The translations under genes were made by a program, and so were the position numbers. Shown one piece after another: positions 3,881 through 51,455 of a stretch of DNA of 64,000 nucleotides (position 1 is its first letter; each line of letters begins with the position of its first letter). The DNA comes from Hydrogenophaga sp. (lineage in GTDB: Bacteria > Pseudomonadota > Gammaproteobacteria > Burkholderiales > Burkholderiaceae_C). The notes under the pieces were generated by a model. The model had not been told where the DNA came from. It ran no database searches and was given only the letters and a program-made list of their open reading frames with translations. The DNA lies in assembly GCF_030656115.1 (NCBI RefSeq), contig NZ_JAUSOO010000105.1, positions 1 to 64,000 on the forward strand, in the 5' to 3' direction.

Positions 3881-3918
3881 CGAATCCAATCAAAAATACC
3901 GTATTCAGGGTGGATAGA

Positions 3919-5412
3919 GTGAATAAAGATAAAACATCGGCAACGTTACTTGACCGGTGGTTGGAGTTTCCACAGTCCGTGTTGTCAGTTCGACTAACGA
4001 AGCTGGCACTGCTGCTTTCCGATGCGTCGGCACTTGTACTCAGTGGTTTGCTGGCTACGTCTCTGTCCATGGCGTTTGATCCCAGTGCACCTGCCAACTA
4101 CGCTGAATGGATGGCGACACAATCGCTGCCGCGTTACTTGGGCTGGGTGCTGGTTGTCGTAGTGGGTTTGGTGCTGTTCTTGGGACGGTACCAGCATTAC
4201 AGCGAGCGCAAGCCTTTTTGGCGAGAGTTGGGGGAGGTGTTTCACAACATCTTCTGGCTGGCGGTGCTCGACATGGCGCTGATGTCCATGGCGCGGTGGA
4301 ACGCGTCGCGATTGTGGTGGCTTTTGGTGTGGCTGCTCGCGATGGCGCTGGTTCCGCTGATGCGCTCAGCGGTCATCCGGTTGCTGCTTCGGCTGAACTT
4401 GTGGCAGCGTCCCACCGTACTCATTGGCGCAGGGCCCAACGCCGTTGAGGCTTTGTTGGCTCTGCGCAGTGAGCCCTTGATGGGTTTTGAAGTAGTGGGC
4501 TGTTTGGCGGTGCATTCTGACGAGTCCGCCACTGCCGTTGACGACGCAGATTTACCTCCTTTGCTGACAAAAGAACAGTTACAACGCCTCAGCTTGCACG
4601 CAGGATTGCAAGTAGTCATTGCACTGGAGCACCACGAGTCCGTCGAACGCGAAAAATGGATGCGTCAGTTGGCCCAATGGAAGGTGCAGGACGTGAGCGT
4701 GATTCCGGCTTTGCGCGGTATTCCGTTGTACGGGACCGATATTTCTTACTTTTTCTCGCATGAGGTTGCACTACTCAGCGTCAGCAACAACCTGCGACAT
4801 TGGCCCGCACGGCTTTCAAAGCGCGCGTTTGACATCGTGGCTTCTTTGGTGTTGTTGGTGCTGCTGTCTACCCTGATGCTTTACTTCGTTTGGCGCATCC
4901 GCCAAGACGGGGGACCCGCTATTTTTTCGCACCAACGGGTGGGGCGCAACGGGAAAATGTTTCCCTGCTACAAATTCCGGTCCATGGTGGTTAACGCCCA
5001 AGAACAACTGAAGCTATTGCTGGCTGCGAATCCCCAACTCCGCGCTCAATGGGAGCAAGACCACAAGCTCAAGAATGACCCTCGCATCAGCGCTGTGGGA
5101 CGTTACTTGCGTGAAACGAGTCTGGATGAGCTGCCCCAGTTGTTTAATGTATTGAGAGGAGAGATGAGCTTGGTGGGACCGCGCCCGATCGTCACGGCTG
5201 AGCTTGAAAGATACGGAGAAGACGTCGAGTACTTTTTGATGGTTCGCCCGGGCATTACCGGGCTTTGGCAGGTGAGCGGCCGCAACGACGTGGGCTACGA
5301 CACCCGCGTGTACCTGGACACTTGGTACGTGAAGAACTGGTCGCTCTGGTACGACATTGCGATTTTGTGCAAAACGGTTCGTGTGGTGTTTAAGCGCGAC
5401 GGCGCTTACTAA
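3919..5412 (+). CDS. wbaP: Undecaprenyl-phosphate sugar-1-phosphate transferase, WbaP type
   Basis: Integral membrane polyisoprenyl-phosphate hexose-1-phosphate transferase. It loads the first sugar (galactose or glucose phosphate) on undecaprenyl phosphate to start a surface polysaccharide. The N-terminal half has several hydrophobic segments and a Rossmann-like CoA-binding-type domain ([15 protein letters not shown]). The C-terminal half is the bacterial sugar transferase domain: [16 protein letters not shown] membrane re-entrant helix, [41 protein letters not shown], and [15 protein letters not shown] use GTG 3919, preceded by AGGGTGG with a five-base spacer, giving 497 residues. A TTG at 3871 overlapping the previous stop is possible but weaker. 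Glucose versus galactose cannot be told by eye. Confidence 0.85.
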
Positions 5413-12931: not shown

Positions 12932-13741
12932 TCAGCGGCCCGTGAACCGGGGTTGGCGCTTGTCCTGAAAGGCCTGGCGCCCCTCGGCAAAGTCCTCGCT
13001 GGAGGACGTGAGCGCCTCGCGTGCGCGCATGGCGGCCAGATCGGGCTGGCCGGCGGCGATTTCGTTGATCGACTGCTTGGTGGCCTGCACCGCCAGCGGC
13101 GCCAGAACAGCGATTTCGCTGACCAGCTGGCGCACGGTGGCGTCAAAGTCGTCCGGGCCCACCAGGGCTTCGAAGCACCCCATGCGCTGCAGCATCTCGG
13201 CGGTGAAGGGACGCGCCGTCAGAAACGCGCGTTTGGCGCCCGACAGGCCCAGCCGCGCCACATAACGCTGCAGGCCACCCGGGTAGTAATGCAGGCCCAG
13301 CGCGGTGGCGGGCATGCGGAATTCGATTCCGGTCAAGCCCACGCTGAGGTCGCAGGCCAGCATCAGGTCGGTGGCACCGCCGTACACGCTGCCGTTGAGC
13401 GCGCACACCGTGATGGGCCGCAGCGCTGCCAGGGCATTGGCCACACGTTCGAACAGTTGCGGGTCGCTGCTGTCGTCGCTGAAACTGCCCATGTGGTAGC
13501 CGGCGCAGAACACCGGGCGGGGTTGCCCCTGGGTGTTGGCCGTGAGCACCAGCACGCGGATGGCCGGGTCGGCGTTGATCCGTTCGAACTGCGCCAGCAG
13601 GCTGCGCAGATCGCCGGCTTCCAGGCGGTTGCGGTGGGCGGGCCGGTTCAGCGTGAGGGTGGCCACGCCACCGTCCACGGACAGGATGGGCGCAGAAGCG
13701 GCGCGGTTGGGCAGTTCGGTCACAGGGGCTCCTTGGCTCAT
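12932..13741 (-). CDS. Enoyl-CoA hydratase/isomerase family protein
   Basis: Crotonase-fold protein of 269 residues, last gene of the 15-gene leftward operon. The family pattern VATLTLNRPAHRNRLEAGDL, oxyanion-hole segments PVFCAGYHMGSF and CALNGSVYGGATDLMLACDL, and FRMPATALGLHYYPGGLQRY are visible. Hydratases normally carry two catalytic Glu. The first position appears as Tyr/Gly (GSVYGGATDL) and the second as Leu/His, so simple enoyl-CoA hydration is doubtful; isomerase, hydrolase or decarboxylase activity is possible. The start at ATG 13741 (MSQGAPVTEL) is 14 bases after the upstream RraA gene; the open frame extends further but only as an antisense-like leader. Confidence 0.8.
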   Translation of the reverse strand: MSQGAPVTELPNRAASAPILSVDGGVATLTLNRPAHRNRLEAGDLRSLLAQFERINADPAIRVLVLTANTQGQPRPVFCAGYHMGSFSDDSSDPQLFERVANALAALRPITVCALNGSVYGGATDLMLACDLSVGLTGIEFRMPATALGLHYYPGGLQRYVARLGLSGAKRAFLTARPFTAEMLQRMGCFEALVGPDDFDATVRQLVSEIAVLAPLAVQATKQSINEIAAGQPDLAAMRAREALTSSSEDFAEGRQAFQDKRQPRFTGR

Positions 13742-13755: not shown

Positions 13756-14418
13756 TCAGCGCCAGCCGTACACCGACAGGGTGGTTTCGCCGGCTTCCAG
13801 GCGGCGCAAAATGGCGGCCTCCTCGGCCTCGCGCCGCTCGCCAGCGGCCACCACTTCGGCGGCGCGGGCGTGGGGAATGGCCACCACGCCGTCGGCGTCG
13901 CCCACGATCAGGTCGCCCGCCTGCACCACCACATGGCCCATGGTGACCGGGTGGTTGATCCAGCCGATGGCACCGAAGTCTTTGCCGGTGCCCTGGATGC
14001 ACAGGCCGCGTGAAAACACCGGGAAGCCGATCTCGCCCAGCAGCACACCGTCGCGCACGCAGCCGTCGATCACCAGGCCGGCCATGCCGCGCACCTTGGC
14101 CATGGTGGTCATGATCTCGCCCCAGTAGCCGTGCTCGTGGGCGCCGTTGGCAAACACCACCATCACGTCACCGGGCTGCGCGATGTCCAGCGCGCGGTGC
14201 AGCCACAGGTTGTCGCCCCCGGGCGAGTGCACGGTGAGGGCCGAGCCGGCGCAGCGGAACTGCGGCGACACCGGCTTGATGGCCGAGGGCAAAGCGCCGA
14301 TCTTCTTCGCGGCTTCGTGCAGCGTGGCGGTGGGCAGCCGGGCGGCGGCGGCCACCAGCGCGGGGCTCAGGCGCGGGAAGTCCAGACGCGTGGTCAAGGC
14401 AGCGTCGTGATTTTTCAT
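13756..14418 (-). CDS. RraA-fold aldolase, 4-carboxy-4-hydroxy-2-oxoadipate aldolase-like
   Basis: Metal-dependent class II pyruvate aldolase candidate of 220 residues. In the HMG/CHA aldolase family the product of the 4,5-cleavage pathway is split into pyruvate and oxaloacetate. Features match that enzyme: FANGAHEHGYWGEIM, the substrate-binding Arg and metal-binding Asp in VIDGCVRDGV, FPVFSRGLCIQGT, and VVVQAGDLIVGDADGVVAIP. Of the three RraA-like genes here this one looks most like a true CHA aldolase. Its start overlaps the stop of the next RraA gene by four bases (ATGA), implying translational coupling. The LigJ-like hydratase on the opposite operon would make its substrate. Confidence 0.8.
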   Translation of the reverse strand: MKNHDAALTTRLDFPRLSPALVAAAARLPTATLHEAAKKIGALPSAIKPVSPQFRCAGSALTVHSPGGDNLWLHRALDIAQPGDVMVVFANGAHEHGYWGEIMTTMAKVRGMAGLVIDGCVRDGVLLGEIGFPVFSRGLCIQGTGKDFGAIGWINHPVTMGHVVVQAGDLIVGDADGVVAIPHARAAEVVAAGERREAEEAAILRRLEAGETTLSVYGWR

Positions 14419-15080
14419 GTGGCCTCGCGGGTCTGAAGCTGGTGGTACTTGAACTGCTGGCGCGCTTCGTCCAGGCGCACGCCGCTGCGCGCGGTTTCGC
14501 GGATCTTGTTTTCAGCGGCCTCGATCTCTTCGGCAATCGCCAGCACGCGGTCTTCGTGTTCCTTGGGGATCACCACCACGCCGTCGGTGTCGCCTTTGAG
14601 GATGTCGCCCGGCGCCACGCGCGCACCGCCGATGTTGACCGGAATGCCGGTGGCTTCCACCTGCACGCGGTCTTTGCCGGTGCGCATCCAGTTGTCGATG
14701 GAGAACACCGGGTAGCCCAGCGACAGGCACAGGTGCGTGTCGCGGTTGATGCCGTTGATGACGGTGCCGGCGATGCCACGGCGGTGGGCGATCTCGGTCA
14801 GGATGTCGCCCCAGACGGTGGCGTCCTCACGGCCGTTGTTGTCCAGCACGATCACGCTGCCGGGCGCCACGTCGTCGATGTAGTCGCCCACGGTGCCGCA
14901 GGGTTTGGCGGCCGGGCCGTACTTGAGCGTCCAGGCGCGCCCGGCCATGCGGAAGTTCACGTCGCGTGGCTTGATCTTGTAGCACTGGCCCACGATGCCC
15001 AGCCGGTCCAGGGCGTCGGACAGGGTCGGCGTGTCTAGCCGGGCGGCGCGCGCCACGTTGTTGTCATCTATCGGTTTCAT
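14415..15080 (-). CDS. RraA-family protein, possible aldolase or decarboxylase
   Basis: A 221-residue RraA-fold protein. Arg-Asp is retained in VINGINRDTHLCLSLGYPVF but the preceding Asp-Gly of aldolases is Asn-Gly. The C-terminal core GARVAPGDILKGDTDGVVVIP is intact, and FSIDNWMRTGKD replaces the usual FSRG segment. The substrate is likely different from that of its downstream neighbour. It could be an aldolase on another keto acid, an oxaloacetate decarboxylase, or a partner subunit in a mixed oligomer. It is translationally coupled to 13756-14418. Confidence 0.75.
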   Translation of the reverse strand: MKPIDDNNVARAARLDTPTLSDALDRLGIVGQCYKIKPRDVNFRMAGRAWTLKYGPAAKPCGTVGDYIDDVAPGSVIVLDNNGREDATVWGDILTEIAHRRGIAGTVINGINRDTHLCLSLGYPVFSIDNWMRTGKDRVQVEATGIPVNIGGARVAPGDILKGDTDGVVVIPKEHEDRVLAIAEEIEAAENKIRETARSGVRLDEARQQFKYHQLQTREAT

Positions 15081-15138: not shown

Positions 15139-15212
15139 AACACCGCGGAACCGGCTCCGCCGGGCCACAGGTGTTGCCCTGGGGGTGGCGCCGCAGGCGG
15201 CGCGGGGGGTCA
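15139..15212. repeat. Structured intergenic repeat, copy A, ending in the stop codon of the upstream RraA gene
   Basis: Begins AACACCGCGGAACCGGCT and ends GGCGCGGGGGGTCA. It shares most bases with copy B (15938-16019). Internal complementary arms (AACACC with GGTGTT; CCGGC with GCCGG) would fold as a compound hairpin. The last three bases are the TGA stop (minus strand) of the gene at 15210. Confidence 0.75.
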
Positions 15213-15881
15213 CGTGTTCAGCATGTGCTCGTAGTTGCCGCCCATGACCTGGCCGATCGGCGTGCCCGTCAGAATCGCCTTGGCCATGGCGGCCTCTTTG
15301 GCCACGATCGTTTCAGCGGCTTCCAGCACGCGCTGAATGTCGGCGGCGGCGATGAAGATCACCGCGCTGCGGTCGGCCAGCACGTAGTCGCCCGGCTGCA
15401 CCACCACCTCGCCGCCTTGCGCCGCACCGATGGTCACCGGCACCTGCACGCCCAGCTCCACCACCCGCCCGCGCGCGGTGCGCGAGGTCAGGCTGCGGCT
15501 GAACACGGGGAATTCGTAGGCGATGGCCTCGTCCACGTCGCGCAAGGGCCCGTCGGCCACCACACCGGCCACGCCGCGCACCTTGGCACCCAGGGTCAGC
15601 AGGCCACCCCAGCAACCGGCTTCCAGGCCCGAGCGCTGCTCGACCACGATCACGTTGTCGGCGTCCGACTGCTCAATGGCGGTGCAACCCAGGTGTTTGG
15701 CGGGTCCGGGCGGTGGCTGGCCAGGACCCACTTTCATGGTCACGGCACGCCCGGCAATACGACCGCCGCCGCTGCGCTGGGTGAGGCCGGTGACCACACC
15801 GGGCAGTTGCAGTTTGTCCATGGCATCGGACACGGCGCAGGCGTCGAGCCGGCGCAGGCGTTGAACTTCAGGGTCGGTCAT
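15210..15881 (-). CDS. RraA-family protein, divergent third copy
   Basis: RraA-fold protein of about 223 residues. Arg-Asp is present in VVADGPLRDVDEAIAYEFPVF, but the usual C-terminal D-x-D-G-V motif is changed to LADRSAVIFIAA, and the middle segment SLTSRTARGRVVELG is unlike aldolases. It may be catalytically altered. I place the start at ATG 15881 (MTDPEV), which has AGGA nine bases upstream; ATG 15890 and 15911 are in frame. It lies between two copies of a structured intergenic repeat, so it may be partly uncoupled from its neighbours. Confidence 0.75.
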   Translation of the reverse strand: MTDPEVQRLRRLDACAVSDAMDKLQLPGVVTGLTQRSGGGRIAGRAVTMKVGPGQPPPGPAKHLGCTAIEQSDADNVIVVEQRSGLEAGCWGGLLTLGAKVRGVAGVVADGPLRDVDEAIAYEFPVFSRSLTSRTARGRVVELGVQVPVTIGAAQGGEVVVQPGDYVLADRSAVIFIAAADIQRVLEAAETIVAKEAAMAKAILTGTPIGQVMGGNYEHMLNT

Positions 15882-15937
15882 GGTTGTCATTCCTGTGATG
15901 TGTTGTGTCAAAGCGCGTGAGGCGGTTCCAGCCCGGA

Positions 15938-16019
15938 AACACCGCGGAACCGGCTTTGCCGGGCCGCAGGTGTTGTCCCCCTTGCAGGGGGGTGGCGCCG
16001 AAGGCGACGCGGGGGGTCA
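15938..16019. repeat. Structured intergenic repeat, copy B, ending in the stop codon of the LigB-type gene
   Basis: AACACCGCGGAACCGGCT, a spacer with CCCCC/GGGGG hairpin arms, then GGTGGCGCCGAAGGCGACGC and a G6 run ending in TCA. It is near-identical to copy A except for a few substitutions and a longer C/G hairpin. The TCA at 16017-16019 is the stop codon of the next gene. Confidence 0.75.
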
Positions 16020-17018
16020 TGTCAATGTCTTCCAGGCGGCAAAGGCCAGCCCGGTGCCGGTCAGCGCCGGTGTGCGGTAGCCCGGCACGTAGTCGACCCA
16101 CTCGACGTCGAGGTCGCGGGCCATCTCGCCCACCACCAGCCAGTTGCGGATTTCCGAGCTGCCGGCCTGCAGCAGTTTGGGGTCGAGCGCGGCCAGGGTG
16201 GCGCTGTCCTTGTTTCGAATCGCGGTGATCACCTGCTGGTCCAGCGCCTCGTCCACCACGAAGTGGCTCAGGCCGCCGGAGGCGATCACGCCCACGCGCA
16301 GGTCCTGCGGCCAGGCCGCGATCAGCTCGCGCAGCGCCGCGCCCAGCGCCACACAGCGGCGCGGTGTGGGCTGGTTGGGCGGGTCGAAGGTGTTGAGAAT
16401 CACCGGAATGACCGGCAGCACCTGTTCTTTGAGCAGGCGGCGGTGGATGAACTGAAAGGCGTGGCCTTCGAACTGGCCGCGCTCCAGGCCGTCCATGGCG
16501 GCGATGTCGAAGTCGCGGTCGCACAGCTGGCGGATCAGCCACTCGGCCAGGTCGCTTTTCACCGGGTAGTCGCGGTCCGCCTCGGGCTCGTGGCGCCACA
16601 TGCGCGCCGACTTGACCCAGCTGTCGCTGGGCGAGGCCGGTTCGCGCGCGGTGTTGCGGATGGTCTCGCCGTAGTAGATGGCAAAGGCGGGGTTGTTGGT
16701 GGTGCGAAACAGCTCGGTCTGGTCGTCGCCCACGATCAGCAGCACGTCGAGCCGGGCGTCGCGGATGCGCTGGCTCAGCTGGTCCATGGCGGCCTCGGCG
16801 GCATCAAAGCGTTCGCTCATTTTCTCGGGCGTGACCATGGCCTCGGTGCCCGCCGGTGCGGCGGCCAGCAGGGCGTCGTAGTCGGTCTTGTTGCCGTGCT
16901 TGTCGTGGTAGTGCACGTTTTTCGGGTCGATGGCGCGGAACCCGTGTTGCCAGTCTTCGCGCTGCGAGACCAGCATGATGCTGTGGGAAGAGCCAAAGGC
17001 GGCTACAAGTTGTGCCAT
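16017..17018 (-). CDS. LigB-type extradiol dioxygenase superfamily protein (class III), altered metal site
   Basis: A 333-residue protein of the catalytic-subunit family of protocatechuate 4,5-dioxygenase and gallate dioxygenase. It keeps His12 (GSSHS), His186 (FEGHAFQF), His252 (GGLSH) and Glu289 (SSEIRNWL), which align with H12, H127, H195 and E242 of LigB as I recall that protein. At the LigB His61 position (YNDH) it has Gln100 (GDDQTELF). No LigA-like small subunit gene is near. NVHYHDKHGNKTDYDALLAA is a further conserved block of this subgroup. Known members open catechol-type rings with non-haem iron. Whether this one does is uncertain because one ligand is missing. It lies 21 bases after the CoA-transferase gene. 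Confidence 0.8.
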   Translation of the reverse strand: MAQLVAAFGSSHSIMLVSQREDWQHGFRAIDPKNVHYHDKHGNKTDYDALLAAAPAGTEAMVTPEKMSERFDAAEAAMDQLSQRIRDARLDVLLIVGDDQTELFRTTNNPAFAIYYGETIRNTAREPASPSDSWVKSARMWRHEPEADRDYPVKSDLAEWLIRQLCDRDFDIAAMDGLERGQFEGHAFQFIHRRLLKEQVLPVIPVILNTFDPPNQPTPRRCVALGAALRELIAAWPQDLRVGVIASGGLSHFVVDEALDQQVITAIRNKDSATLAALDPKLLQAGSSEIRNWLVVGEMARDLDVEWVDYVPGYRTPALTGTGLAFAAWKTLT

Positions 17019-17039: not shown

Positions 17040-18242
17040 TCAGACAACAAACTGGGCGCGCAGCTCGGCGATGCGCTCGGGGCTGTAACCCAGGCCGCTC
17101 AGGATGGCCTCGGTCTGGTCGCCCTGGTGCGGCGCGGGCTGCAGCGGACCCTCATCGCGCGGGTAGCGCGAAAACTGCATGGGCAGGCCCACCACCTCGA
17201 TGTCACCCAGCTCCGGGTGGTGCATGGGGCGGGCCATGCCCAGGTGCTTCACCTGCGGGTCCGCAAACATGCGGTCGACGGTGTAGATCGGGCCGCAGGG
17301 CACACCGGCCTTGAGCAGGCGCTCGGTCCAGTCGGACGTGGTGCGGGTCTTGAACGCGGCGCCGATGGCGGCGTTCACGCGGGCCCGGTTCTGCACGCGC
17401 TCGGGGTCGGAGCCAAAGCCGGGTTCGTCGATCAGCGGCGCCACATCGAGCGCCACACACAGGCGCTTCCACATGGTCTGGCCAATGGCGGCCAGGTTGA
17501 TGAAGCCGTCGCTGGTGGCGAACACGCCGGTGGGCACGGTCAGCGGGTGCTCGTTGCCGGTGGACTTGGGCACCTTGCGGTCGATCAGCCACTGCGCGGC
17601 CTGGAAGTCGAGCATGGCGATCTGCGATTCGAGCAGCGAGGTCTGCACCCACTGGCCCTCGCCCGACACCTCGCGCTCCAGCAGCGCGGCCATGATGGCC
17701 TGGGCGCAGAAGTGGCCCGAGCACAGGTCGGCGATCGGAATGCCCACGCGCATGGGGCCGTCTTCGGGCCGGCCGGTCAGGCTCATCAGGCCCCCCATGC
17801 CCTGGGCGATGGAGTCGAAGCCGGGCCAGTTGGCGTAGGGGCCGTCCTGGCCGAAGCCCGAGATGCTGGCGTACACCAGCCGGGGGTTGATGGCGCGCAA
17901 TTCGTCGGGGCCGATGCCCAGGCGGTACTTCACATCGGGCCGGTAGTTCTCGATGAACACGTCGGCCGTTTTCACCAGCTCGCGCAGGATGGCCAGCCCC
18001 TCGGGCTCCTTCATGTTGAGGGTCAGGCTTTCCTTGTTGCGGTGCAGGTTCTCGTAGTCGGCGCGGTTGTGGTCGCGCCCGCCGATCATGTCGTCCCCCC
18101 CGGGCGCACCGGGCGGAATCTCCAGCTTGATCACGCGCGCGCCCAGGTCGGCAAAGGTGCGGATGGCGGTGGGGCCGGCGCGCACGCGGGTCGCGTCCAG
18201 GATGGTGAAGCGCGACAGCGGGCCTGTTCTGGGTGAGTTCAT
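17040..18242 (-). CDS. Family III CoA-transferase (CaiB/BaiF)
   Basis: Moves CoA from one acyl thioester to another free acid, forming interlocked dimers in the cytoplasm. 400 residues, normal length. Family blocks are FTILDATRVRAGPTAIRTFADLGARVIKLE, then RNKESLTLNMKEPEG, VFIENYRPDVKYRLGIG, YASISGFGQDGPYANWPGFD and GMGGLMSLTGRPEDGP. ATG 18242 (MNSPRTG) with GGGAG five bases upstream is the start. An in-frame ATG at 18254 also exists. In this operon it may activate the growth substrate or recycle CoA from an intermediate. Confidence 0.9.
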   Translation of the reverse strand: MNSPRTGPLSRFTILDATRVRAGPTAIRTFADLGARVIKLEIPPGAPGGDDMIGGRDHNRADYENLHRNKESLTLNMKEPEGLAILRELVKTADVFIENYRPDVKYRLGIGPDELRAINPRLVYASISGFGQDGPYANWPGFDSIAQGMGGLMSLTGRPEDGPMRVGIPIADLCSGHFCAQAIMAALLEREVSGEGQWVQTSLLESQIAMLDFQAAQWLIDRKVPKSTGNEHPLTVPTGVFATSDGFINLAAIGQTMWKRLCVALDVAPLIDEPGFGSDPERVQNRARVNAAIGAAFKTRTTSDWTERLLKAGVPCGPIYTVDRMFADPQVKHLGMARPMHHPELGDIEVVGLPMQFSRYPRDEGPLQPAPHQGDQTEAILSGLGYSPERIAELRAQFVV

Positions 18243-18389: not shown

Positions 18390-18830
18390 TCATGCGGGGG
18401 TGAACATGGGCACGGCGTGGCCGCCTTCGCTGGGTTTGAAGACCACGCGCACGGCCTGCCCGATAGCCACCTGGGCCGGATCGCAGTCCACCAGGTTGGT
18501 CATCAGCGTCACGCCTTCGGCCAGCGTGACGAAAGCCAGCGTGTAGGCCGCTTCGCCCTTGCCCATGGTGCTGAAGGAATAGACGGTGCCGGTGCCGGCG
18601 GCCTGTTGCCATTCGGTGTCGGCGCTGAGGCAGTGCGGGCAGATGTCGCGCGGGTAGTGGTGCACTTCGCCGCAGGCCTTGCACCGTTTGACCAGCAGAC
18701 GGCCTTCGTCGGCCGCCGTCCAGTACGGCAGCGATTCGGGCAGCACGCGCGGTGCCGGGATCTTGCGCGGGCCGGCGGCGGGCGCGGGCGGGCGGGCAGG
18801 TTTGTCTTGCGGGGTGTTGGGGGTGCTCAT
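18390..18830 (-). CDS. DUF35 / OB-fold acyl-CoA-associated protein with zinc ribbon
   Basis: A 146-residue partner protein of SCP-x/Ltp2-type thiolases. The rubredoxin-like zinc ribbon is CKACGEVHHYPRDICPHC (two Cys pairs), followed by an OB fold (GTGTVYSFSTM, TLAFVTLAEG, VRVVFKPSEGG). Such proteins bind their thiolase or retro-aldolase partner and help CoA-substrate binding. The next gene upstream is exactly such a thiolase, five bases away, supporting a complex. The N-terminus is Pro/Ala-rich and likely disordered. Confidence 0.88.
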   Translation of the reverse strand: MSTPNTPQDKPARPPAPAAGPRKIPAPRVLPESLPYWTAADEGRLLVKRCKACGEVHHYPRDICPHCLSADTEWQQAAGTGTVYSFSTMGKGEAAYTLAFVTLAEGVTLMTNLVDCDPAQVAIGQAVRVVFKPSEGGHAVPMFTPA

Positions 18831-18835: not shown

Positions 18836-20053
18836 TCAGATCCTCTCCAGAATCAGGGTGCCGGCGGTGTGGCGCGAGGCCAGTGCACCGCCAATGCCGT
18901 TGGCCAGGGCCAGCCCGCAGTTGGGCACCTGCACGGCAGGGTGGGCTTCGCCGCGCAGCTGGCGCACGGCCTCAATCACCTTGGTGATGCCGCCGCGGTT
19001 GGCCGGGTGGTTGTTGCACAGGCCACCGCCGTCGGTGTTGAAGGGCAGCTTGCCCACGCCCGAGATCAGGTTGCCGTCCATCACGAACCTGCCGCCCTCG
19101 CCTTTTTTGCAAAAGCCCAGGTCTTCGAGCTGCATCAGCACGGTGATGGTGAAGCTGTCGTAGAGCGAGGCGTACTGGATGTCGGCGGGCGTGAGGCCGG
19201 CCTCGGCAAACGCCATCGGGCCGGACCAGGCCGCAGCGGAATACGTGAGGTCCATGCGGCCACCCATGCCGTGCTTGGGCGCTTCCCCGGTGCCGCGCAC
19301 CTTCACCAGTGGGCGGCCGCTCTTGCGCGCCAGTTCGCGGGCAATTTCGGGCCGGGCCACGATCAGGGCGCCGCCGCCGTCGCTCATGACGCAGCAGTCC
19401 AGCCGGTGCAGCGGGTCGCTCACCATCGGCGAGTTCACCACGTCCGCCACCGTGACCACATCGCGCAGCATGGCGTGGGGGTTGTGCTGGGCGTGGTGCG
19501 ACGCCGCCACCTTGATCCAGGCCAGTTGCTCGGACGTGGTGCCGAACTCGAACATGTGGCGCTTGGCCACCGCCGCGTACAGGTTTTGCGTGGCCGGGCC
19601 GTAGGGCAGCTCAAAGGCCAGCTCCGGCGCGTCGGGGTCGGGCGGGCGCAAGGCCAGCGGCGACTTGCCGCCCTTGCCTTCTTTCGCCGCCGCCTGGGCC
19701 GCCGCCATCTGGGCGCGCGGGCGCCCTGCCAGGGTGATCAGCGCCACGTTGCAGCGGCCCGCCGCAATGGCCTCGGCGGCGTGCGCCACATGCAGGATGG
19801 GCGCGGAGCCGCCGCATTCGGTCGAGTCCACATGGCGCAGCTTCAGGCCCAGGTACTCGGCCACGGTGGTGGTGCCCAGGCCGGGTGCATCGCCGGCGCA
19901 GAAGTAGCCGTCGATGTCGCTTTTGGACAGGCCGGCGTCCTCCAGCGCGCCCTTGGCCACGTCGGCGTGCAGGCGCACCACGGACAGGTCGTCCGCCTTG
20001 CGCGTGGGGTGTTCGTAGGCGCCAACGATGTAGGCGGAACCGTTCAGACTCAT
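18836..20053 (-). CDS. SCP-x-type thiolase / acetyl-CoA acetyltransferase family protein
   Basis: Thiolase-fold enzyme of 405 residues. Cys80 in VDSTECGGSAPILHVA occupies the nucleophile position; the catalytic His is seen in GGGLCNNHPANRGG. The C-terminal Cys-x-His-x-G motif appears only as NCGLALANGIGG. Together with the adjacent DUF35 gene it resembles thiolase/DUF35 pairs of side-chain degradation, where some members do thiolysis and others (Ltp2) retro-aldol cleavage. The retained Cys argues for thiolysis. Start ATG 20053 (MSLNGSAY) with GGAAG upstream. Confidence 0.85.
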   Translation of the reverse strand: MSLNGSAYIVGAYEHPTRKADDLSVVRLHADVAKGALEDAGLSKSDIDGYFCAGDAPGLGTTTVAEYLGLKLRHVDSTECGGSAPILHVAHAAEAIAAGRCNVALITLAGRPRAQMAAAQAAAKEGKGGKSPLALRPPDPDAPELAFELPYGPATQNLYAAVAKRHMFEFGTTSEQLAWIKVAASHHAQHNPHAMLRDVVTVADVVNSPMVSDPLHRLDCCVMSDGGGALIVARPEIARELARKSGRPLVKVRGTGEAPKHGMGGRMDLTYSAAAWSGPMAFAEAGLTPADIQYASLYDSFTITVLMQLEDLGFCKKGEGGRFVMDGNLISGVGKLPFNTDGGGLCNNHPANRGGITKVIEAVRQLRGEAHPAVQVPNCGLALANGIGGALASRHTAGTLILERI

Positions 20054-20114: not shown

Positions 20115-21095
20115 TTACTGGGCGGGCGTGAAGCCGGTGGCCTTGATGACCGGGCCCCAATAGGCCAGCTCTTTGCGCTGCAGGCGGTCCATCTCTTCGG
20201 CCGGGCGGAAGTCCGGGTTCAGGGTGGCTTTGTTGGCCAGGATCTCGCGCACCTCGGGCAGCGCCAGCGCGTATTTCAGCGCGTTTTGCACCTGGACCAG
20301 CTTGGCCTTGGGCGTGTTGGCCGGGGCCCACATGCCGGTCCAGGCGTCACCGGTGTCGATGTTGATGCCCTGCTCCTTGAACGTGGGCACGTCGGGCAGC
20401 ATGGGCGAACGCTGGGCACCAAACACACCCACCACGCGCACCTTGCCGCTCTTCTGGTGCGGAAGAATGTCGCCCGCCGTCATGACGCCGGCCGGCACCT
20501 GGCCACCCAGCAAATCGGTCACCAGCGGGCCATTGCCCCGGTAGGGAATGGCCAGCAGCTCCACGCCAATGGCCTTGCCCAGTTGAATGCCGCTGAAATG
20601 GGTGTGCCCGCCGGCACCGGCCGTGCCGAAGCTGCTGTCCTTGGCGTTGGCCTTGACCCAGGCCACGTACTCTTTGGCCGTTTTCACACCGGTGTGCTGG
20701 CCCACCGCCAGCGCCAGCGGGTAAGACACCACCACGCCCACCGGCGCGAAGTCTTTGAGCATGTTGTACTTCAGCACCTCGGGCGGGTACAGCAAGGTCT
20801 GAAACACCGGCGTGGCGTTGGGCGCAATCATGTAGGTCAGGCCATCGGGTGCGCTGGACTTGAGCGTCTGCGCGGCCAGCCGGCCACCCGCGCCCGCCTT
20901 GTTCTCAATGACGATGGCCTGCTTGAGCACCACCGCCATTTTTTCAGCCAGCACGCGCGCCACGGTGTCGGTGGAGCCCCCGGGCGGAAAACCCACCAGA
21001 AACTTGATGGGCTGGCTCGACTGGGCCGCGGCGCTCAGGCTGACGCCCAAGGCCACACAAGCGAGTGCTGAACGAAAGAAGGGGGCAATTTGCAT
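20115..21095 (-). CDS. Bug-family (TctC) periplasmic solute-binding protein 1
   Basis: Periplasmic binding protein of 326 residues with a Sec signal peptide (MQIAPFFRSALACVALGVSLSAAAQ). Typical Bug motifs follow: IKFLVGFPPGGSTDTVARVLAEKM, VIENKAGAGGRLAAQ, MIAPNATPVFQTL, YRGNGPLVTDLLGGQVPAG, and DAWTGMWAPANTPKA. These bind carboxylates, often aromatic acids or amides. No TctA/TctB membrane genes lie nearby. It sits between the ALDH and thiolase genes of the catabolic operon, which suggests the bound ligand is the pathway substrate or inducer. Confidence 0.92.
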   Translation of the reverse strand: MQIAPFFRSALACVALGVSLSAAAQSSQPIKFLVGFPPGGSTDTVARVLAEKMAVVLKQAIVIENKAGAGGRLAAQTLKSSAPDGLTYMIAPNATPVFQTLLYPPEVLKYNMLKDFAPVGVVVSYPLALAVGQHTGVKTAKEYVAWVKANAKDSSFGTAGAGGHTHFSGIQLGKAIGVELLAIPYRGNGPLVTDLLGGQVPAGVMTAGDILPHQKSGKVRVVGVFGAQRSPMLPDVPTFKEQGINIDTGDAWTGMWAPANTPKAKLVQVQNALKYALALPEVREILANKATLNPDFRPAEEMDRLQRKELAYWGPVIKATGFTPAQ

Positions 21096-21173: not shown

Positions 21174-22637
21174 TCAGTTCAGGTCGATGGCGACCGACTT
21201 GAGTTCGGTGTAGGCCTCCACGCCCTCGCGGCCGTTTTCACGGCCCCAGCCCGACTGCTTGTAGCCGCCAAAGGGCATGGCAAAGTCCAGCGCGGCGGCG
21301 GCGTTGACCCGCACGTTGCCGGCTTTGAGGCGCCGCACCATCTGGTGGGCGGTGCGCAGGTCGCGCGTCCAGATGCTGGACGAGAGACCAAAGTCGGTGT
21401 CATTGCCGCGCGCGGCGAGTTGCTCCAGGCTGTCGTCGTCGAACTGCTGCACGCACAGCACCGGGCCAAAAATCTCTTCGCGCACCACCCGCATGGCGGG
21501 CGTGGTGTTCACCAGCACGGTGGGCTGGATGAAATAACCGGCGCCGTCGAGGGCCTCGCCCCCGGCCACCACCTCGGCACCCTCGGCGCGGCCGCTGGCC
21601 ACATAGGCCATGACGCGCTCGCGCTGGCGGGCCGAAATCACCGGGCCGATCTCGGCGTCGGCCACCAGGCCGGGCGCCACGCGCAGCTGGCGGGCGCGCT
21701 GGGCCACACCCTCGACCACACGCTCGGCCACGCTGCGGTGCACGAACAGCCGCGAGCCGGCGGCACACACCTGGCCGGTGTTGCTGAAGATGCCGCGCGC
21801 GGCGGCGTCGATGGCGCGGTCCAGATCGGCGTCGGGAAAGATGAACACCGGCGACTTGCCGCCCAGCTCCAGCGCCACGCGCTTGAGGTTGCCGGCCGCG
21901 CTGGCCAGAATGGCCTTGCCCACGGCGGTGGAGCCGGTGAACGAGACCTTGTCCACGCCCGGGTGCGCCACCAGCGCCTGCCCGGCTTCGGTGCCCAGGC
22001 CGGTGACGATGTTCACCACCCCGGGCGGGAAGCCCACCGCCACCATGAGCTCGCCCAGGCGCAGCGCGGTCAGCGGCGTGAGCTCGGCGGGCTTGAGCAC
22101 CACCGTGCAACCGGCGGCCAGCGCGGGCGCGATCTTGCTCACCGCCATGGCCAGCGGCACGTTCCACGGCACGATCAGGCCCACCACGCCCACCGGCTCG
22201 CGCAGGGTGTAGGCGTGCCAGTCGCCGGGCAGCGAGACCGCGCGGGTTTCGCCGTTGAGCTTGGTGGCCCAGCCGGCGTTGTAGCGCAGGCATTCGGCGG
22301 CGTGGCCCACGTCGAACAGGCGGGCCACCTTGAGTGGCTTGCCCGTGTTCAGGGTTTCCAGCAGGGCGAGCTCGTCGCCGTGCTGCTCCAGCGCGTCGGC
22401 CAGCTTGAGCAGCAGGCGGGTGCGCTCGGCCGGGCGCACGCGGGCCCACGGGCCGGCTTCGAGCGCGCGGCGCGCGGCCTGCACCGCCTGGTCGATCTCG
22501 GCCGCGCCGCCCAGGGCTTCCTGCGCCAGCACCTCGCCGGTGGACGGGTTGATCACGTCCATGCTCGCGCCCGAGGCGCAGCCCACCCACTGCCCGTCGA
22601 TCAACAGGCGCAGGGGTTGCTGGAGCAAGGGTGGCAT
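21174..22637 (-). CDS. Aldehyde dehydrogenase (NAD(P)-dependent)
   Basis: ALDH-superfamily enzyme that oxidises an aldehyde to a carboxylate. About 487 residues. Catalytic Cys in FSNTGQVCAAGSRLF, general base Glu in VALELGGKSP, the oxyanion Asn in PWNVPLAM, cofactor motif FTGSTAVGKAI and EEIFGPVLCVQ are all intact. The start is ATG 22637 (MPPLLQQP); a GTG at 22658 is also possible and would leave an 11-base gap to the GMC gene. It probably follows the GMC alcohol oxidoreductase directly in the pathway (alcohol to aldehyde to acid). Confidence 0.92.
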   Translation of the reverse strand: MPPLLQQPLRLLIDGQWVGCASGASMDVINPSTGEVLAQEALGGAAEIDQAVQAARRALEAGPWARVRPAERTRLLLKLADALEQHGDELALLETLNTGKPLKVARLFDVGHAAECLRYNAGWATKLNGETRAVSLPGDWHAYTLREPVGVVGLIVPWNVPLAMAVSKIAPALAAGCTVVLKPAELTPLTALRLGELMVAVGFPPGVVNIVTGLGTEAGQALVAHPGVDKVSFTGSTAVGKAILASAAGNLKRVALELGGKSPVFIFPDADLDRAIDAAARGIFSNTGQVCAAGSRLFVHRSVAERVVEGVAQRARQLRVAPGLVADAEIGPVISARQRERVMAYVASGRAEGAEVVAGGEALDGAGYFIQPTVLVNTTPAMRVVREEIFGPVLCVQQFDDDSLEQLAARGNDTDFGLSSSIWTRDLRTAHQMVRRLKAGNVRVNAAAALDFAMPFGGYKQSGWGRENGREGVEAYTELKSVAIDLN

Positions 22638-22669: not shown

Positions 22670-24295
22670 TCAGAGAGAGGGAGCAGGGGGAAGGCTGCGG
22701 CCGAGGATCATGTCGGCCGCCTTCTCGGCAATCATCACGGTGGCCGCGTTGGTGTTGCCGCCCGGAATGGTGGGCATGATGGACGCGTCCACCACGCGCA
22801 GACCCGCCACGCCGCGCACGCGCAGCTGCGGGTCCACCACGGCGTCGGGGCCCACGCCCATGGCACAGGTGCCCACCGGGTGGTGGGTGATGCCGCCGAA
22901 CTCGCGGATCGCCTGCGCCAGTTCGGTGTCGCTGTTCAGGTGGGCACCCGGAATGGTTTCGGCGTCGATCAGTTCGGCCTGTGGGCTCTGGGCGTAAATC
23001 TGGCGCGCCGCGCGCAGGCCTGCGCGCATCGACTCGACATCTTCCGGCGCGGAAAACAGGTTCAACGCAATCTTCGGTGCGTCGCTGGGGTTGGCCGAAC
23101 GCAGGCTCACGCGGCCCCGGCTTTTCGCGTGCAGCTGGCACACCGTGATGTAAAAGCTGTGTTCCTTGGGCTTGACCAGGCCCGGGAACCACAGACCGGC
23201 GTCAAAGCGCACCGGGTTGCACAGCAGCTGGATGTCGGGGCGGTCCAGCTCGGGGCGGGTCTTGAGCAGCACCGTGCCGCTGCAGATCTGGGTCGCAAAC
23301 GCGCCTTTGCCAAACAACGCCCACTTCAGCACCGAAACAATGGCCTTGTCCAGGCGCAGCTGGTTCGTGAAGGTCACCGGGGCGCTGGCGCGGTACATCA
23401 GCATCATGCGCGGGTGCTCCACCAGGTTGCCACCCACGCCGGGCAGGTCAACCACCACGGAAATACCCAGGCTCTTGAGGTGCGCGGCCGGTCCGATGCC
23501 CGAGAGCATGAGCAGCTGCGGCGAGTTGTAGGCGCCCCCGCTGAGCACCACCTCGCAGCGCGCATGGGCCTGCACCAACTGGCCGTTGCGGGTGTATTCG
23601 ACACCCACAGCCCGGCCGTTGTCCATCAGCACGCGGGTGGCCACCGCGCGGGTGTGCACCCGCAGGTTGGCGCGGTCGCGCACCGGGTGCAGGTAGGCGC
23701 GGGCGCTGCTGCTGCGCCGGCCCCGCGCGTCAATGGCCACGTCCCCGCGCGCAATGCCTTCGTTGTGCTCGCCGTCGTAGTCGTCGGTCACGGCGTGCCC
23801 GGCCCGCACGGCCGCCGCGCGCAGCGGCTCGTCGAGCAGCTCGCGGGTGTCGATGTGGCGGATCTGCAGCGGGCCCTGGCCACCATGGAAAGGGCCGGCG
23901 CCGCGCCAGTTGCTCTCGGAGCGCAGAAAGTAAGGCAACACGTCCTGGTAACCCCAGCCGGTGCAACCGAGGTCGCGCCACTCGTCAAAGTCGAGCCGGT
24001 GGCCCCGGATGTGGAACATGCCGTTGATGGAAGAAGAGCCGCCCAGCAGCCGCCCACGGGGGATGGGCAAGCGGCGTCCGTTCAGGTGCGGCTCGGGCTC
24101 GCTTTCGTAGCCCCAGGTGAGCGAGCGGCGTTGCAGCGCCTTCATGAAACCCACCGGCATGCGCACCAGCGGGTGGCGGTCTTCCCCGCCGGCTTCCAGC
24201 AGCAGCACCGTCTTCTGGCCGTCCGCACTGAGGCGGTTGGCCAGCACGCAGCCCGCCGAACCGGCGCCCACCACGATGTAATCCACTTCTTCCAT
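22670..24295 (-). CDS. GMC-family FAD-dependent alcohol oxidoreductase
   Basis: Choline-dehydrogenase-like flavoprotein of 541 residues. ADP-binding motif VVGAGSAGCVLANRLS, GMC signature 1 region GRLLGGSSSINGM, signature 2 LSGGAYNSPQLLMLSGIGPA, and the catalytic His pair region GGITHHPVGTCAMG with PGGNTNAATVMIAEKAA are present. It oxidises a primary alcohol to an aldehyde using FAD and an electron acceptor. No signal peptide is visible. The gene lies 24 bases after a Bug receptor gene and before ALDH, consistent with oxidation of a hydroxymethyl or alkyl alcohol. Confidence 0.9.
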   Translation of the reverse strand: MEEVDYIVVGAGSAGCVLANRLSADGQKTVLLLEAGGEDRHPLVRMPVGFMKALQRRSLTWGYESEPEPHLNGRRLPIPRGRLLGGSSSINGMFHIRGHRLDFDEWRDLGCTGWGYQDVLPYFLRSESNWRGAGPFHGGQGPLQIRHIDTRELLDEPLRAAAVRAGHAVTDDYDGEHNEGIARGDVAIDARGRRSSSARAYLHPVRDRANLRVHTRAVATRVLMDNGRAVGVEYTRNGQLVQAHARCEVVLSGGAYNSPQLLMLSGIGPAAHLKSLGISVVVDLPGVGGNLVEHPRMMLMYRASAPVTFTNQLRLDKAIVSVLKWALFGKGAFATQICSGTVLLKTRPELDRPDIQLLCNPVRFDAGLWFPGLVKPKEHSFYITVCQLHAKSRGRVSLRSANPSDAPKIALNLFSAPEDVESMRAGLRAARQIYAQSPQAELIDAETIPGAHLNSDTELAQAIREFGGITHHPVGTCAMGVGPDAVVDPQLRVRGVAGLRVVDASIMPTIPGGNTNAATVMIAEKAADMILGRSLPPAPSL

Positions 24296-25367: not shown

Positions 25368-26483
25368 TCACACCCGTTGCAGGTGCCAGGCGGCGTCGCC
25401 GAACAGTTGCCCCATGACCATCAGGCGCTTGGCGCAGTGGCTGACGCGGCATTCGTCGGTCATGCCCATGGCGCCGTGCATCTGAATGGCCGACAAACCC
25501 AGCTGGCGGCCTTGCTGGCTCACCAGCACCTTGGCCGCCGAGACCAGGCGCCGGCGCTGCACCGGCTCGCCCATCTCCACGGCCATGGCGGCGACGCAGG
25601 CCATCGACTTGAGCTGCTCCAGCGCAATGGCCATGTCGGCCACGCGGTGCTGCAGCACCTGAAACTTCGCCAGCGGCGCACCGAACTGCTTGCGGGTGCG
25701 CAGGTGCTCGGCGGTGTGCACCAGCAGCGCGTCCACCACACCCACCGCCTCGGCGCACAGGGCGGCAATGGCCGCGTCCAGCGCGGCTTCCACCGCATCG
25801 GCCGCCGCGCCGGGCGTGCCCAGCAGGCCGTCGGGCGCCACCACCACATCGGTCAGCGTGACGTGGGCCGCGCGGCGCCCGTCCAGCGTGTCGTGGCCGC
25901 GCACCTGCACGCCGGGCGCGCTGGCGTCCACCGCGAACACCGTCAGGCCCTGGCGCTCGTCACCCTGGCCAGCGGTGCGTGCCACCACCAGCAGCAGGCC
26001 GGCGCTGTCGCCGTGCAGCACACCGGTCTTGCGGCCGTTGAGCACATGGCCTTGCGGGGTGGCGCGGGCCTGCAGCTGCACACGCTGCCAGTCGTAGCGG
26101 GCACCGTCTTCGTACAGGGCCACGCCGGCCTGCAGCGCGCCGCTGGCCAGGGCCGGCAGCCAGCGCTGCTGTTGCTCGGGCGAACCCAGGCGCACGAGCA
26201 ACTCGCCGGCCATGACGGTGCTGGCCACAAAGGCGCCCCCACCCAGGGCGCGGCCCAGTTCCTGGGCCACCAGCATCACCTCCACCGGGCCTTGCTCGCT
26301 GCCACCGGCGTCGGCCGGGAAGGGCAGGCCCAGCAGGCCCAGCTCGGCCATGCCCGACCAGCGGGCCCGGGCTTGCTCGGGGGTTTCGGCGTTGCCCCGG
26401 TGTTCCACCGGGTATTCGCCATCGCAAAAGCGTTGCACCGCAGCGCGCAGCGCCAGGTGGTCGTCGTTCAGAGAGAAATCCAT
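25368..26483 (-). CDS. Acyl-CoA dehydrogenase, small subunit type (PimD-like)
   Basis: FAD enzyme of 371 residues. The N-terminal helical domain (MDFSLNDDHLALRAAVQRF), a short central beta domain and the C-terminal domain with HLRTRKQFGAPLAKFQVLQHRVADM and IQMHGAMGMTDECRVSHCAKRL are visible. Its neighbour upstream is the longer PimC-like subunit. Adjacent short and long acyl-CoA dehydrogenases commonly form alpha2beta2 enzymes in dicarboxylate, cycloalkane and steroid catabolism. The pair would desaturate an acyl-CoA at C2-C3. Confidence 0.87.
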   Translation of the reverse strand: MDFSLNDDHLALRAAVQRFCDGEYPVEHRGNAETPEQARARWSGMAELGLLGLPFPADAGGSEQGPVEVMLVAQELGRALGGGAFVASTVMAGELLVRLGSPEQQQRWLPALASGALQAGVALYEDGARYDWQRVQLQARATPQGHVLNGRKTGVLHGDSAGLLLVVARTAGQGDERQGLTVFAVDASAPGVQVRGHDTLDGRRAAHVTLTDVVVAPDGLLGTPGAAADAVEAALDAAIAALCAEAVGVVDALLVHTAEHLRTRKQFGAPLAKFQVLQHRVADMAIALEQLKSMACVAAMAVEMGEPVQRRRLVSAAKVLVSQQGRQLGLSAIQMHGAMGMTDECRVSHCAKRLMVMGQLFGDAAWHLQRV

Positions 26484-26525
26484 TGCGTGTCCTTGGGTAT
26501 CCAGCCGGGAGGGGGGCTCAGCCGC

Positions 26526-27719
26526 TCAGAAGGCGTCGAGCGTGGCCCGGGCGATCAGGTTGCGCTGCACCTCGTTGGTCCCGCCGTAAATCGTGAGCTT
26601 GCGGGCGTCGAGGCAGTTCGCGGCCAGGGCCACCAGGGTGGGGTCGGTGACCGCTTCGTCCAGGTGTTCCAGGCTTTGTGCTTCGAGCGAAAACGGCACC
26701 GCATCCGGCCCGGCAATGTCCACCAGCGCCTCGAAGATGGCCTGGCGCAGCTCGGTGCCGCGCACCTTGAGCATGGAGGCTTCCACGCCGGGCGTGCGGC
26801 TTTGCTGGTGGTCGCTGAGCAGGCGCAGGGCGGTGAATTCCAGCGCCATGAGTTCCACGTCGAACTGGGCCAGCCGCGCCTGCAGCACCGGGTCGTCGCC
26901 CAGGCCCTGCTGCTGCGCCAGCTGGCGGGCGCGGGCCAGCTGCTGCTTGCACGAACCGATGCCGGCGATGCCGGTGCGCTCGTGGCCCAGCAGGTACTTG
27001 CCGTACGACCAGCCCTTGTGCAGCTCGCCCACCAGGTTGTCCACCGGCACGCGCACGTTGTCGAGGTAGCACTCGTTGAGGTCGGTGCCGCCTTCGAGCA
27101 TGCGGATCGGGCGCACGGTGAGGCCGGGCGAGGCCATGTCGATCAGCAAGAAGGAAATGCCTTCCTGCGGCTTGCTGGCGTGGGGGTCGGTGCGCACCAG
27201 CGCAAACATCATCGAGCACCAGTGGGCGTAGGAGGTCCAGACCTTGTGGCCGTTGACCACGAAGTGCTTGCCGTCGGGCTCCAGCACGGCGGTGGTGCGC
27301 ACGGTGGCCAGGTCGGAGCCGGCGCCTGGCTCCGAGAAGCCTTGCGCCCACCAGGTGTTGCTCTGGCGGATGTCGGGCAGGTATTGGCGCTTCTGTTCCT
27401 CGGTGCCAAAGGCGTGCAGCACCGGCCCCAGCATCTGGATGCCGCTGGCGATGATGCGCGGCGCGCCACCCAGCAGGGTCTCTTCGTCGAAGATGTAGCG
27501 CTGCACATGGTTCCAGCCGGGGCCACCGTGCTCCACCGGCCAGCCCGGCGTGAGCCAGCCCCGGGCTTCCAAAATGCGGAACCAGGTCACGTAGTCGGCG
27601 TGTTCCAGGCGCAGGCCCAGCTCCACCTTGCGGCGGATGTCGGCGGGCAGGTGCTCTTTGACGAAGGCGCGCACTTCCAGGCGGAAGGCCTCGTCGGCGG
27701 CGGAAAACTGAAGTTTCAT
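26526..27719 (-). CDS. Acyl-CoA dehydrogenase, large subunit type (PimC-like)
   Basis: 397-residue acyl-CoA dehydrogenase. WAQGFSEPGAGSDLATVRTTA is the FAD/substrate loop, GHKVWTSYAHWCSMMFALVRTD the central domain, and LTIYGGTNEVQRNLIARATLDAF the C-terminal signature. WPVEHGGPGWNHVQRYIFDEE is characteristic of PimC- and FadE26-like enzymes. It is separated by 42 bases from the small-subunit gene and 21 bases from the CoA ligase gene. The heterodimer is inferred from context, not shown. Confidence 0.88.
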   Translation of the reverse strand: MKLQFSAADEAFRLEVRAFVKEHLPADIRRKVELGLRLEHADYVTWFRILEARGWLTPGWPVEHGGPGWNHVQRYIFDEETLLGGAPRIIASGIQMLGPVLHAFGTEEQKRQYLPDIRQSNTWWAQGFSEPGAGSDLATVRTTAVLEPDGKHFVVNGHKVWTSYAHWCSMMFALVRTDPHASKPQEGISFLLIDMASPGLTVRPIRMLEGGTDLNECYLDNVRVPVDNLVGELHKGWSYGKYLLGHERTGIAGIGSCKQQLARARQLAQQQGLGDDPVLQARLAQFDVELMALEFTALRLLSDHQQSRTPGVEASMLKVRGTELRQAIFEALVDIAGPDAVPFSLEAQSLEHLDEAVTDPTLVALAANCLDARKLTIYGGTNEVQRNLIARATLDAF

Positions 27720-27740
27720 GGTCGGGTCTCTCTCACCTGG

Positions 27741-43300: not shown

Positions 43301-43477
43301 CTGCGGCGCCTGCCCGGGCCAGCTGGTGCGGATGATGACCTGGGTGTCCGACAGGTCGGGCAGCGCATCCAGCGGTGTGCGAAGCATCGACACCACGCCC
43401 CAGGCGGTGATCATCACCGTGGCCATCAGGACCAGGAAGCGGTTGGCGATGCTCCAGTGGATCAGGCGCGCGATCAT
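40340..43477 (-). CDS. cusA: CusA-type heavy-metal efflux RND transporter
   Basis: Inner-membrane proton-driven pump of 1045 residues exporting Cu(I)/Ag(I) through CusB and CusC. HME-RND features: [19 protein letters not shown] start, [50 protein letters not shown]4 [21 protein letters not shown] with acidic proton-relay residues, and [21 protein letters not shown]. Met-rich pore positions of CusA (for example [21 protein letters not shown]) are present, favouring monovalent copper or silver over Zn/Co/Cd. Its start overlaps the cusB stop by four bases. The C-terminal tail is short. Confidence 0.93.
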
Positions 43478-47260: not shown

Positions 47261-47265
47261 GGTGC

Positions 47266-50150: not shown

Positions 50151-50160
50151 GTTCGTTGGC

Positions 50161-51454: not shown

Positions 51455-51455
51455 C

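Follow-up and report, generated by a model that had tools for sequence, protein, structure and literature searches.

A LigZ/DesZ-type extradiol dioxygenase gene from Hydrogenophaga with glutamine at the place of an iron-ligand histidine, apparently a trait of its clade

RESULTS AND DISCUSSION

In our view it is very probable that the LigB-type gene at positions 16017-17018 of the window (the whole 64,000-nucleotide stretch of Hydrogenophaga sp. DNA that was analyzed) encodes a single-subunit class III extradiol dioxygenase, likely Fe(II) dependent, belonging to the LigZ/DesZ clade within the PCAD superfamily, and that its glutamine at position 100 characterizes this clade and can coexist with ordinary extradiol ring opening. 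Judged from the sequences compared, the gene is a new member of an already known clade, and its odd residue is common to what appear to be characterized enzymes.

Gene, product, and fold

The open reading frame (ORF) occupies the minus strand, with its ATG at 17018 and its TGA at 16017, and comprises 333 codons with no internal stop. The assignment of its product as a LigZ/DesZ-type class III (PCAD) enzyme draws on its Pfam match, an AlphaFold model, and its identity to DesZ and LigZ. The protein scores 49.8 bits against Pfam LigB (PF02900; cutoff, 26.3), which places it in the PCAD/LigB superfamily. NCBIfam returned only matches far below their cutoffs (the best was PRK13373, with 56.9 bits versus 462), and PHROG families returned none. 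The nearest PDB chains found by sequence were LigB and DesB; no chain was closer, and no structure of the LigZ/DesZ clade was found that would display the role of the glutamine. The PDB search, run to a limit of E up to 1, also listed six Cas9 chains at E ~0.4, which were taken as chance matches.

The AlphaFold model, built from 52 family sequences, has a mean pLDDT of 94.8 and superposes on both DesB (3wr8_A; Z 29.6, 260 residues, 2.9 Å) and LigB (1bou_B; Z 29.2, 262 residues, 2.8 Å), arguing that the window protein has the class III extradiol dioxygenase fold. Model and Pfam score together bear out an earlier note on this DNA, which had called the product a LigB-type homolog.

Active-site residues

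The iron ligands of DesB are His12, Asn57, His59, and Glu239, and its His124 and His192 are essential in catalysis, according to the text available of PMC3962378. We aligned profiles (hhalign) of 52 family members and of 14 canonical proteins, including Sphingobium SYK-6 LigB and DesB. GDDQ of the window protein fell opposite YNDH, ungapped nearby, with Gln100 (codon CAG, 16719-16721; this codon and those that follow are on the minus strand) occupying the place of LigB His61, as the earlier note had proposed, and of DesB His59. Thus, the standard His-His-Glu set (His12/His61/Glu242 in LigB; His12/His59/Glu239 in DesB) is incomplete in the window protein, glutamine standing at the second histidine. 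The same alignment pairs His12 (16983-16985), His252 (16263-16265), and Glu289 (16152-16154) with LigB His12, His195, and Glu242; the first and last are the presumed iron ligands, and His252 (DesB His192) is the presumed catalytic base.

The earlier note had matched a fourth residue, His186 (16461-16463), with LigB His127 (DesB His124). MAFFT alignments agree, but hhalign places it four columns off; because the two registers differ, this equivalence depends on the alignment, whereas the other three matches stand. The note's reading would have failed had an alignment brought another histidine into the site. No alignment placed a further invariant one there: the invariant histidines in both family alignments are 12, 186, and 252, while His192 is almost invariant in the nearer set of 52 but falls outside the conserved columns when the wider set of 13 is considered. 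The sequence around Gln100, GDDQTE, conforms to the clade motif G-[DNK]-D-Q-x-E and includes Glu102 (16713-16715).

Glutamine across the LigZ/DesZ clade

The searches for relatives together yielded 176 hits, or 158 distinct proteins after merging of identical sequences; the 117 that scored ≥300 bits with the family profile, a limit of our choosing, are referred to here as the clade. Glutamine occupies position 100 in 115 of these 117 and histidine in the other two. Asp99, Glu102, His186, His252, and Glu289 are present in all 117, and His12 is present in 116, the remaining row being gapped; residue 98 varies (98 D, 15 N, and 4 K). Across the full set of 158, the place of Gln100 holds 121 Gln, 34 His, 2 Arg, and 1 Asp. 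All 121 aligned Gln-type proteins have glutamate two residues further on (position +2), where the canonical His types of this set have other residues. A first search, covering 250 genomes of the same bacterial family, had given the same picture: of the homologs that were read, all 20 of the LigZ/DesZ type have glutamine (the window copy made a 21st row) and all 13 canonical ones have histidine. Most Gln-type proteins come from Proteobacteria; one Chloroflexi bin lies in the core clade, and one Mycolicibacterium plasmid lies further out.

A quick tree was computed with the motif columns excluded and near-duplicate orthologs, fragments, and rows shorter than 240 residues dropped, which left 127 of the 158 rows; its support values are SH-aLRT only, and some of its branches are long. 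LigZ, DesZ, and the window protein fall in a group of 86 rows (SH-aLRT 96), apart from 32 canonical rows (SH-aLRT 98). This grouping away from LigB and DesB, together with full-length similarity of 37% to LigZ and 39% to DesZ, puts the window protein in the LigZ/DesZ clade.

How the sets were gathered bears on the counts. The scan of genome contigs used two peptide patterns, G[DN]DQxE, which includes the glutamine, and SGGLS, which lacks it and admits His variants; the latter must have brought in the two His loci described below. The scan furnished the best 80 of at least 483 confirmed candidates. Other sets came from whole-protein or profile searches without the Gln pattern, with motifs read among the matches listed (30 at most per search). 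As far as these comparisons go, the glutamine in GDDQxE is a trait of the LigZ/DesZ clade and not a defect.

LigZ and DesZ of Sphingobium SYK-6

We took one sphingomonad genome (G395) as that of Sphingobium SYK-6, because its LigB matches the LigB of the PDB with 100% identity across 214 residues. Among its PCAD genes, two are Gln type and four are NDH type. The Gln-type gene at 0.82 Mb sits in the order MFS transporter, Gln-type gene, RraA, RraA, amidohydrolase, Rieske oxygenase with a LigXa_C domain, and MarR regulator. We take it as ligZ because these surroundings match the DDVA cluster (ddvK, ligZ, ligY, ligXa, and ddvR) as given in the accessible part of PMC6874591, and because it lies near the position expected from the locus tag SLG_07720 given for ligZ in that of PMC12997858, which lists desZ as SLG_19030. 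The second Gln-type gene, at 2.10 Mb, follows an amidohydrolase gene and precedes an RraA gene. Interpolating by hand from desB and ligB puts SLG_19030 at 2.09 Mb, so the gene is ~10 kb off the linear estimate; we identify it as desZ on the basis of this interpolation and its neighbors rather than of an annotated record.

Both names belong to ring-cleaving enzymes in the portions of the literature at hand. LigZ is the OH-DDVA dioxygenase and hands its product on to LigY, a meta-cleavage compound hydrolase (PMC6874591). DesZ is grouped with two other extradiol dioxygenases as evolutionarily related (PMC3962378) and described as the 3-O-methylgallate (3MGA) 3,4-dioxygenase (PMC6888825); a strain given DesA and DesZ metabolized 3-O-methylgallate, although the ring-opened product was undetected (PMC11325090). 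Since the genes that we identify as ligZ and desZ have the glutamine, the residue appears to be compatible with ring cleavage. The earlier note had suggested a different reaction, such as hydrolysis; the same glutamine in these presumed ring-cleaving dioxygenases leaves that suggestion unsupported, as does the alternation of glutamine and histidine within one bacterial family (see below).

Over its full length, the window protein shows 39% identity to DesZ, with which it also shares the invariant residues and the lack of LigA; the DesZ motif is GNDQ, with asparagine at position 98 where the window protein has aspartate. The two loci have in common an RraA gene after the dioxygenase gene, and desZ has a LigY-like amidohydrolase gene before it, but the 18 kb around desZ contain no match to the thiolase, OB-fold, CoA-transferase, or acyl-CoA dehydrogenase and synthetase genes of the window. 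LigZ, 37% identical, likewise has GNDQ; it is followed by two RraA genes and preceded by matches to the acyl-CoA synthetase, enoyl-CoA hydratase, thiolase, and OB genes, and its LigXa and LigY companions have counterparts in the window. It differs in length (336 residues, from a start of our choosing), in the MFS gene directly before it, in having LigY in the same gene string, and in having no CoA-transferase match.

Alternation of glutamine and histidine in the Reyranella family

Two His loci, L090 (an uncultured Rhodospirillales bin) and L094 (Reyranella soli), carry the motif GDDHKE and are nested within the Gln clade, where L087 and L089, both with glutamine, are their neighbors (SH-aLRT 100). 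In the Reyranella family, 19 of 75 genomes have a relative at E ≤ 1e-40. LigZ/DesZ-type genes whose motif could be read number 19, with histidine in 8 (L090 and L094 among them) and glutamine in 11; a line was obtained for 20 of 22 loci, of which L169 is the canonical type, while L170 and L187 gave none under the pattern used. All eight His orthologs retain glutamate at +2 (GDDHKE). Identity to the Reyranella query is 78 to 91% for the other His members and 73 to 75% for the nearest Gln members, and the His codon (CAC) is one base away from the Gln codons (CAG/CAA).

That glutamine has been retained nearly everywhere, with a single base between the two states, suggests that it is selected and that histidine is tolerated or preferred in one lineage. 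A broader reading would make the LigZ/DesZ clade a large natural set of extradiol enzymes in which the triad histidine has become glutamine with normal ring opening retained, and in which a Reyranella-type lineage has regained the histidine; the iron site would then be His-Gln-Glu (or His-Glu plus water), switched by one base and probably cotuned with Glu102. We give this reading even odds. With glutamine in the presumed LigZ and DesZ and histidine in Reyranella-type orthologs (~75% identity to their Gln relatives), the role of the triad's second histidine is directly testable.

Canonical relatives, LigA, and PydA

LigAB (protocatechuate 4,5-dioxygenase) and DesB (gallate dioxygenase) resemble the window protein in fold (Z ~29) and in the counterparts of His12, His252, and Glu289; they differ in having NDH in place of DQ and a LigA subunit or domain, and identity is 20 to 22% over superposed residues. 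By Pfam, the contig of the window has no LigA match, as the earlier note had observed, and so, unlike ligB, the gene has no LigA subunit gene beside it. Elsewhere in the genome, two LigA matches exceed the Pfam cutoff; they lie on contigs C31 and C156, each ≤0.4 kb from the matched stretch of one of the genome's two canonical NDH LigB homologs (L004 and L005); none of its three Gln-type genes has an adjoining LigA match. SYK-6 has four LigA matches, one next to or within each of its four NDH genes, and none accompanies its two Gln-type genes. Because LigA accompanies only canonical genes in these two genomes, its absence is expected for the Gln type rather than an oddity of the window. The other two Gln-type genes of the Hydrogenophaga genome (C91:54521-55510 and C174:42833-43828; L002 and L003) encode paralogs that are each 37% identical to the window protein.

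PydA, the 3-hydroxy-4-pyridone dioxygenase, also belongs to the LigB family, according to the available text of PMC7356986. Its motif DDHFENH, as given in the part at hand of PMC3637104, includes both histidine and glutamate; it shares D-D-x-x-E with the window motif and differs in having histidine at the Gln position. A search by published primer pattern for the PydA gene (His type, Glu at +2) found none in 399 genomes of the window's order.

Some sphingomonads have degenerate PCAD genes beside Gln-type ones. In L159 (genes at ~871-1845 and 1839-2831) and L158, an intact Gln-type gene (GGDQFEW) has a degenerate neighbor, with arginine at the Gln place and other histidines lost; from its residues, this looks like a pairing of a catalytic with a noncatalytic subunit. 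Aminophenol 1,6-dioxygenase, for comparison, is such a catalytic and noncatalytic pair. One further sphingomonad (L157:1522-3467 and 3615-4562) has three close PCAD genes, two of the Gln type (GGDQTE and GGDQNE) and one degenerate (GYDD, with no histidine at position 12).

Operon, neighbors, and presumed substrate

The dioxygenase gene lies within a run of minus-strand genes, an operon that recurs in many Burkholderiales, for example in Malikia (L038) and Cupriavidus pinatubonensis (L051). Next downstream are three RraA-family genes: RraA3 (aldolase/RraA; 15210-15911; Pfam RraA-like; 55% and 69% to the RraA matches beside ligZ and desZ), RraA2 (14415-15080; Pfam; 73% to the matches beside ligZ and desZ), and RraA1 (13756-14418; 61% to the match beside desZ). 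RraA1 is of the 4-carboxy-4-hydroxy-2-oxoadipate aldolase type; its product passes the curated cutoff (NF006731; 183 bits versus 179) for this enzyme, with which the protocatechuate 4,5-cleavage and gallate pathways end. An enoyl-CoA hydratase/isomerase family gene follows (12932-13741), assigned by domain matches and gene order; its ATG at 13741 is our choice in an ORF extending to 14002.

Next upstream is a CoA-transferase family III gene (17040-18242; Pfam CoA_transf_3 and gene order), for which we chose the ATG at 18242 in an ORF reaching 18371. It is preceded by genes for a ChsH2-type OB-fold/zinc-ribbon protein (18390-18830; Pfam) and an adjoining thiolase-like protein (18836-20053, with our choice of ATG at 20053; subfamily PRK08142, 706.6 bits versus 462). 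Further up lie genes for a TctC-type solute-binding protein (20115-21095; Pfam), an aldehyde dehydrogenase (21174-22637; Pfam Aldedh; ATG at 22637 chosen by us, ORF to 23192), and a choline dehydrogenase-like GMC oxidoreductase (22670-24295; NCBIfam). The stretch 25368-30065, also on the minus strand, holds two acyl-CoA dehydrogenase genes (25368-26483 and 26526-27719) and one for an ADP-forming acyl-CoA synthetase (27741-30065), identified by Pfam and kept in this order in many loci.

Among the 80 loci named in the contig scan, the close orthologs are mostly from Burkholderiales; many of the loci end short, and more distant members have other surroundings. Gene order was counted with the window genes as probes, some of whose starts differ by a few codons from the gene starts given here, and with matches of at least half the probe length; genes outside the probe set may intervene. 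On this basis, 34 of the 80 loci have the string thiolase, OB-fold protein, CoA-transferase, LigZ/DesZ-type gene, RraA3, and RraA2, and 33 of these 34 also have RraA1. The acyl-CoA synthetase and two acyl-CoA dehydrogenase genes come before, and the enoyl-CoA hydratase gene after, in 28 loci, 19 of which have the TctC gene in place.

A separate, divergent set of genes on the plus strand, 14 to 18 kb from the dioxygenase gene, includes a LigY-like amidohydrolase gene (31489-32490; 43% to SYK-6 LigY; Pfam Amidohydro_2) and a LigXa-like Rieske oxygenase gene (34823-36124; 59% over 424 columns to the SYK-6 LigXa gene; Pfam Rieske and LigXa_C). A second Rieske gene lies on the same strand at ~32502-33737 (Pfam). 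Matches to the amidohydrolase gene occur near the dioxygenase gene in 4 of the 80 loci, and matches to the two Rieske genes occur in 14 and 8; their rarity is a weak test of association, because no locus extends further than 8 kb in either direction.

The RraA1 aldolase and the LigXa- and LigY-like genes point to a carboxylated catechol of lignin origin as the probable substrate; it may resemble 3-O-methylgallate or gallate or be a biaryl catechol. This catechol would be formed by a Rieske oxygenase, and at the end of the pathway the RraA aldolases would cleave a product of the 4-carboxy-4-hydroxy-2-oxoadipate type. The CoA genes of the operon hint at processing of the product, or of a side chain, by way of CoA thioesters.

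Two other parts of the window may be mentioned. Copper and heavy-metal resistance genes adjoin the aromatic island at 40340-56713 and encode an AcrB-family (RND) pump, a CusB/CusF-type protein, a P-type ATPase with a YHS domain, and two multicopper oxidases. A transposase gene (DDE_Tnp_1) lies close to the left end, at 189-788.

The iron site and alternative explanations

A changed set of iron ligands is possible in the window protein. Most likely, His12 and Glu289 would hold Fe(II), while Gln100, in the place of His61, would serve as a weak oxygen ligand or hold a water ligand. His252 would act as the base that takes a proton from the Fe(II)-bound catechol, and His186 would be the histidine on the substrate side; O2 would then add, and the ring would open beside the two hydroxyls. 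Glu102 may keep Gln100 in place through a hydrogen bond; it does not seem to be simply a replacement ligand, since His orthologs retain it. LigZ activity is said, in the 1998 paper on its cloning, to depend on ferrous iron.

The glutamine could instead mark a different metal site, in which Glu102 or Asp/Asn98 replaces the lost histidine to form a His-Glu-Glu or His-Asp-Glu triad, perhaps with Mn(II). The constant company of Gln100 and Glu102 in the 121 Gln-type proteins is in keeping with this, as is the ligand role of DesB Asn57, the first residue of NDH, according to the text at hand of PMC3962378; however, a single clade supplies the association, which may therefore reflect common ancestry. 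Moreover, the eight Reyranella-family His orthologs all retain the glutamate, the PydA motif (PMC3637104, as far as available) has histidine and glutamate together, so that the one is no simple substitute for the other, and residue 98 is variable. Altogether, we think a different metal site unlikely. Much less probable still is a catalytically dead protein, or a hydrolase or binding protein left after loss of dioxygenase function. One residue of the 2-His-1-carboxylate set is indeed missing, and degenerate PCAD partners with arginine or aspartate at the Gln place and other histidine positions lost do occur elsewhere in the tree, but the clade keeps its other catalytic positions almost without exception, and Gln-type genes, which occur in many Proteobacteria as well as in a Chloroflexi bin, include the presumed ligZ and desZ. 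As for a plain LigB or gallate dioxygenase altered by sequencing error or recent point mutation, a single base (CAG to CAC) would restore the histidine; nevertheless, with glutamine in all 20 related homologs and the canonical NDH homologs encoded separately in the same genome, we rejected this explanation as having a negligible chance of being right. The preferred reading therefore remains a working extradiol dioxygenase with a clade-specific glutamine.

Annotation of Gln-type genes

Absence of an "iron-ligand histidine" from a LigB homolog should thus not be taken for loss of function, an annotation trap. A literature search for discussion of the extradiol glutamine found none, including in the available parts of PMC8431788, PMC12997858, and the review PMC4019311, which is not proof that it is unpublished. 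Current labels vary among three plasmid-borne Gln-type genes: those in Diaphorobacter and Polymorphobacter are labeled "protocatechuate 3,4-dioxygenase," and that in Aminobacter is labeled "hypothetical protein." The former label, which is the name of an unrelated intradiol enzyme, appears in plasmid records NZ_CP049906.1 and NZ_CP081849.1, whose coordinates correspond to loci L021 and L128. The Aminobacter plasmid (L163) has a compact LigZ/DesZ-like string consisting of an amidohydrolase gene, the Gln-type gene, three RraA/aldolase genes, the last of which is annotated as 4-carboxy-4-hydroxy-2-oxoadipate aldolase, and then a 4-hydroxybenzoate 3-monooxygenase gene.
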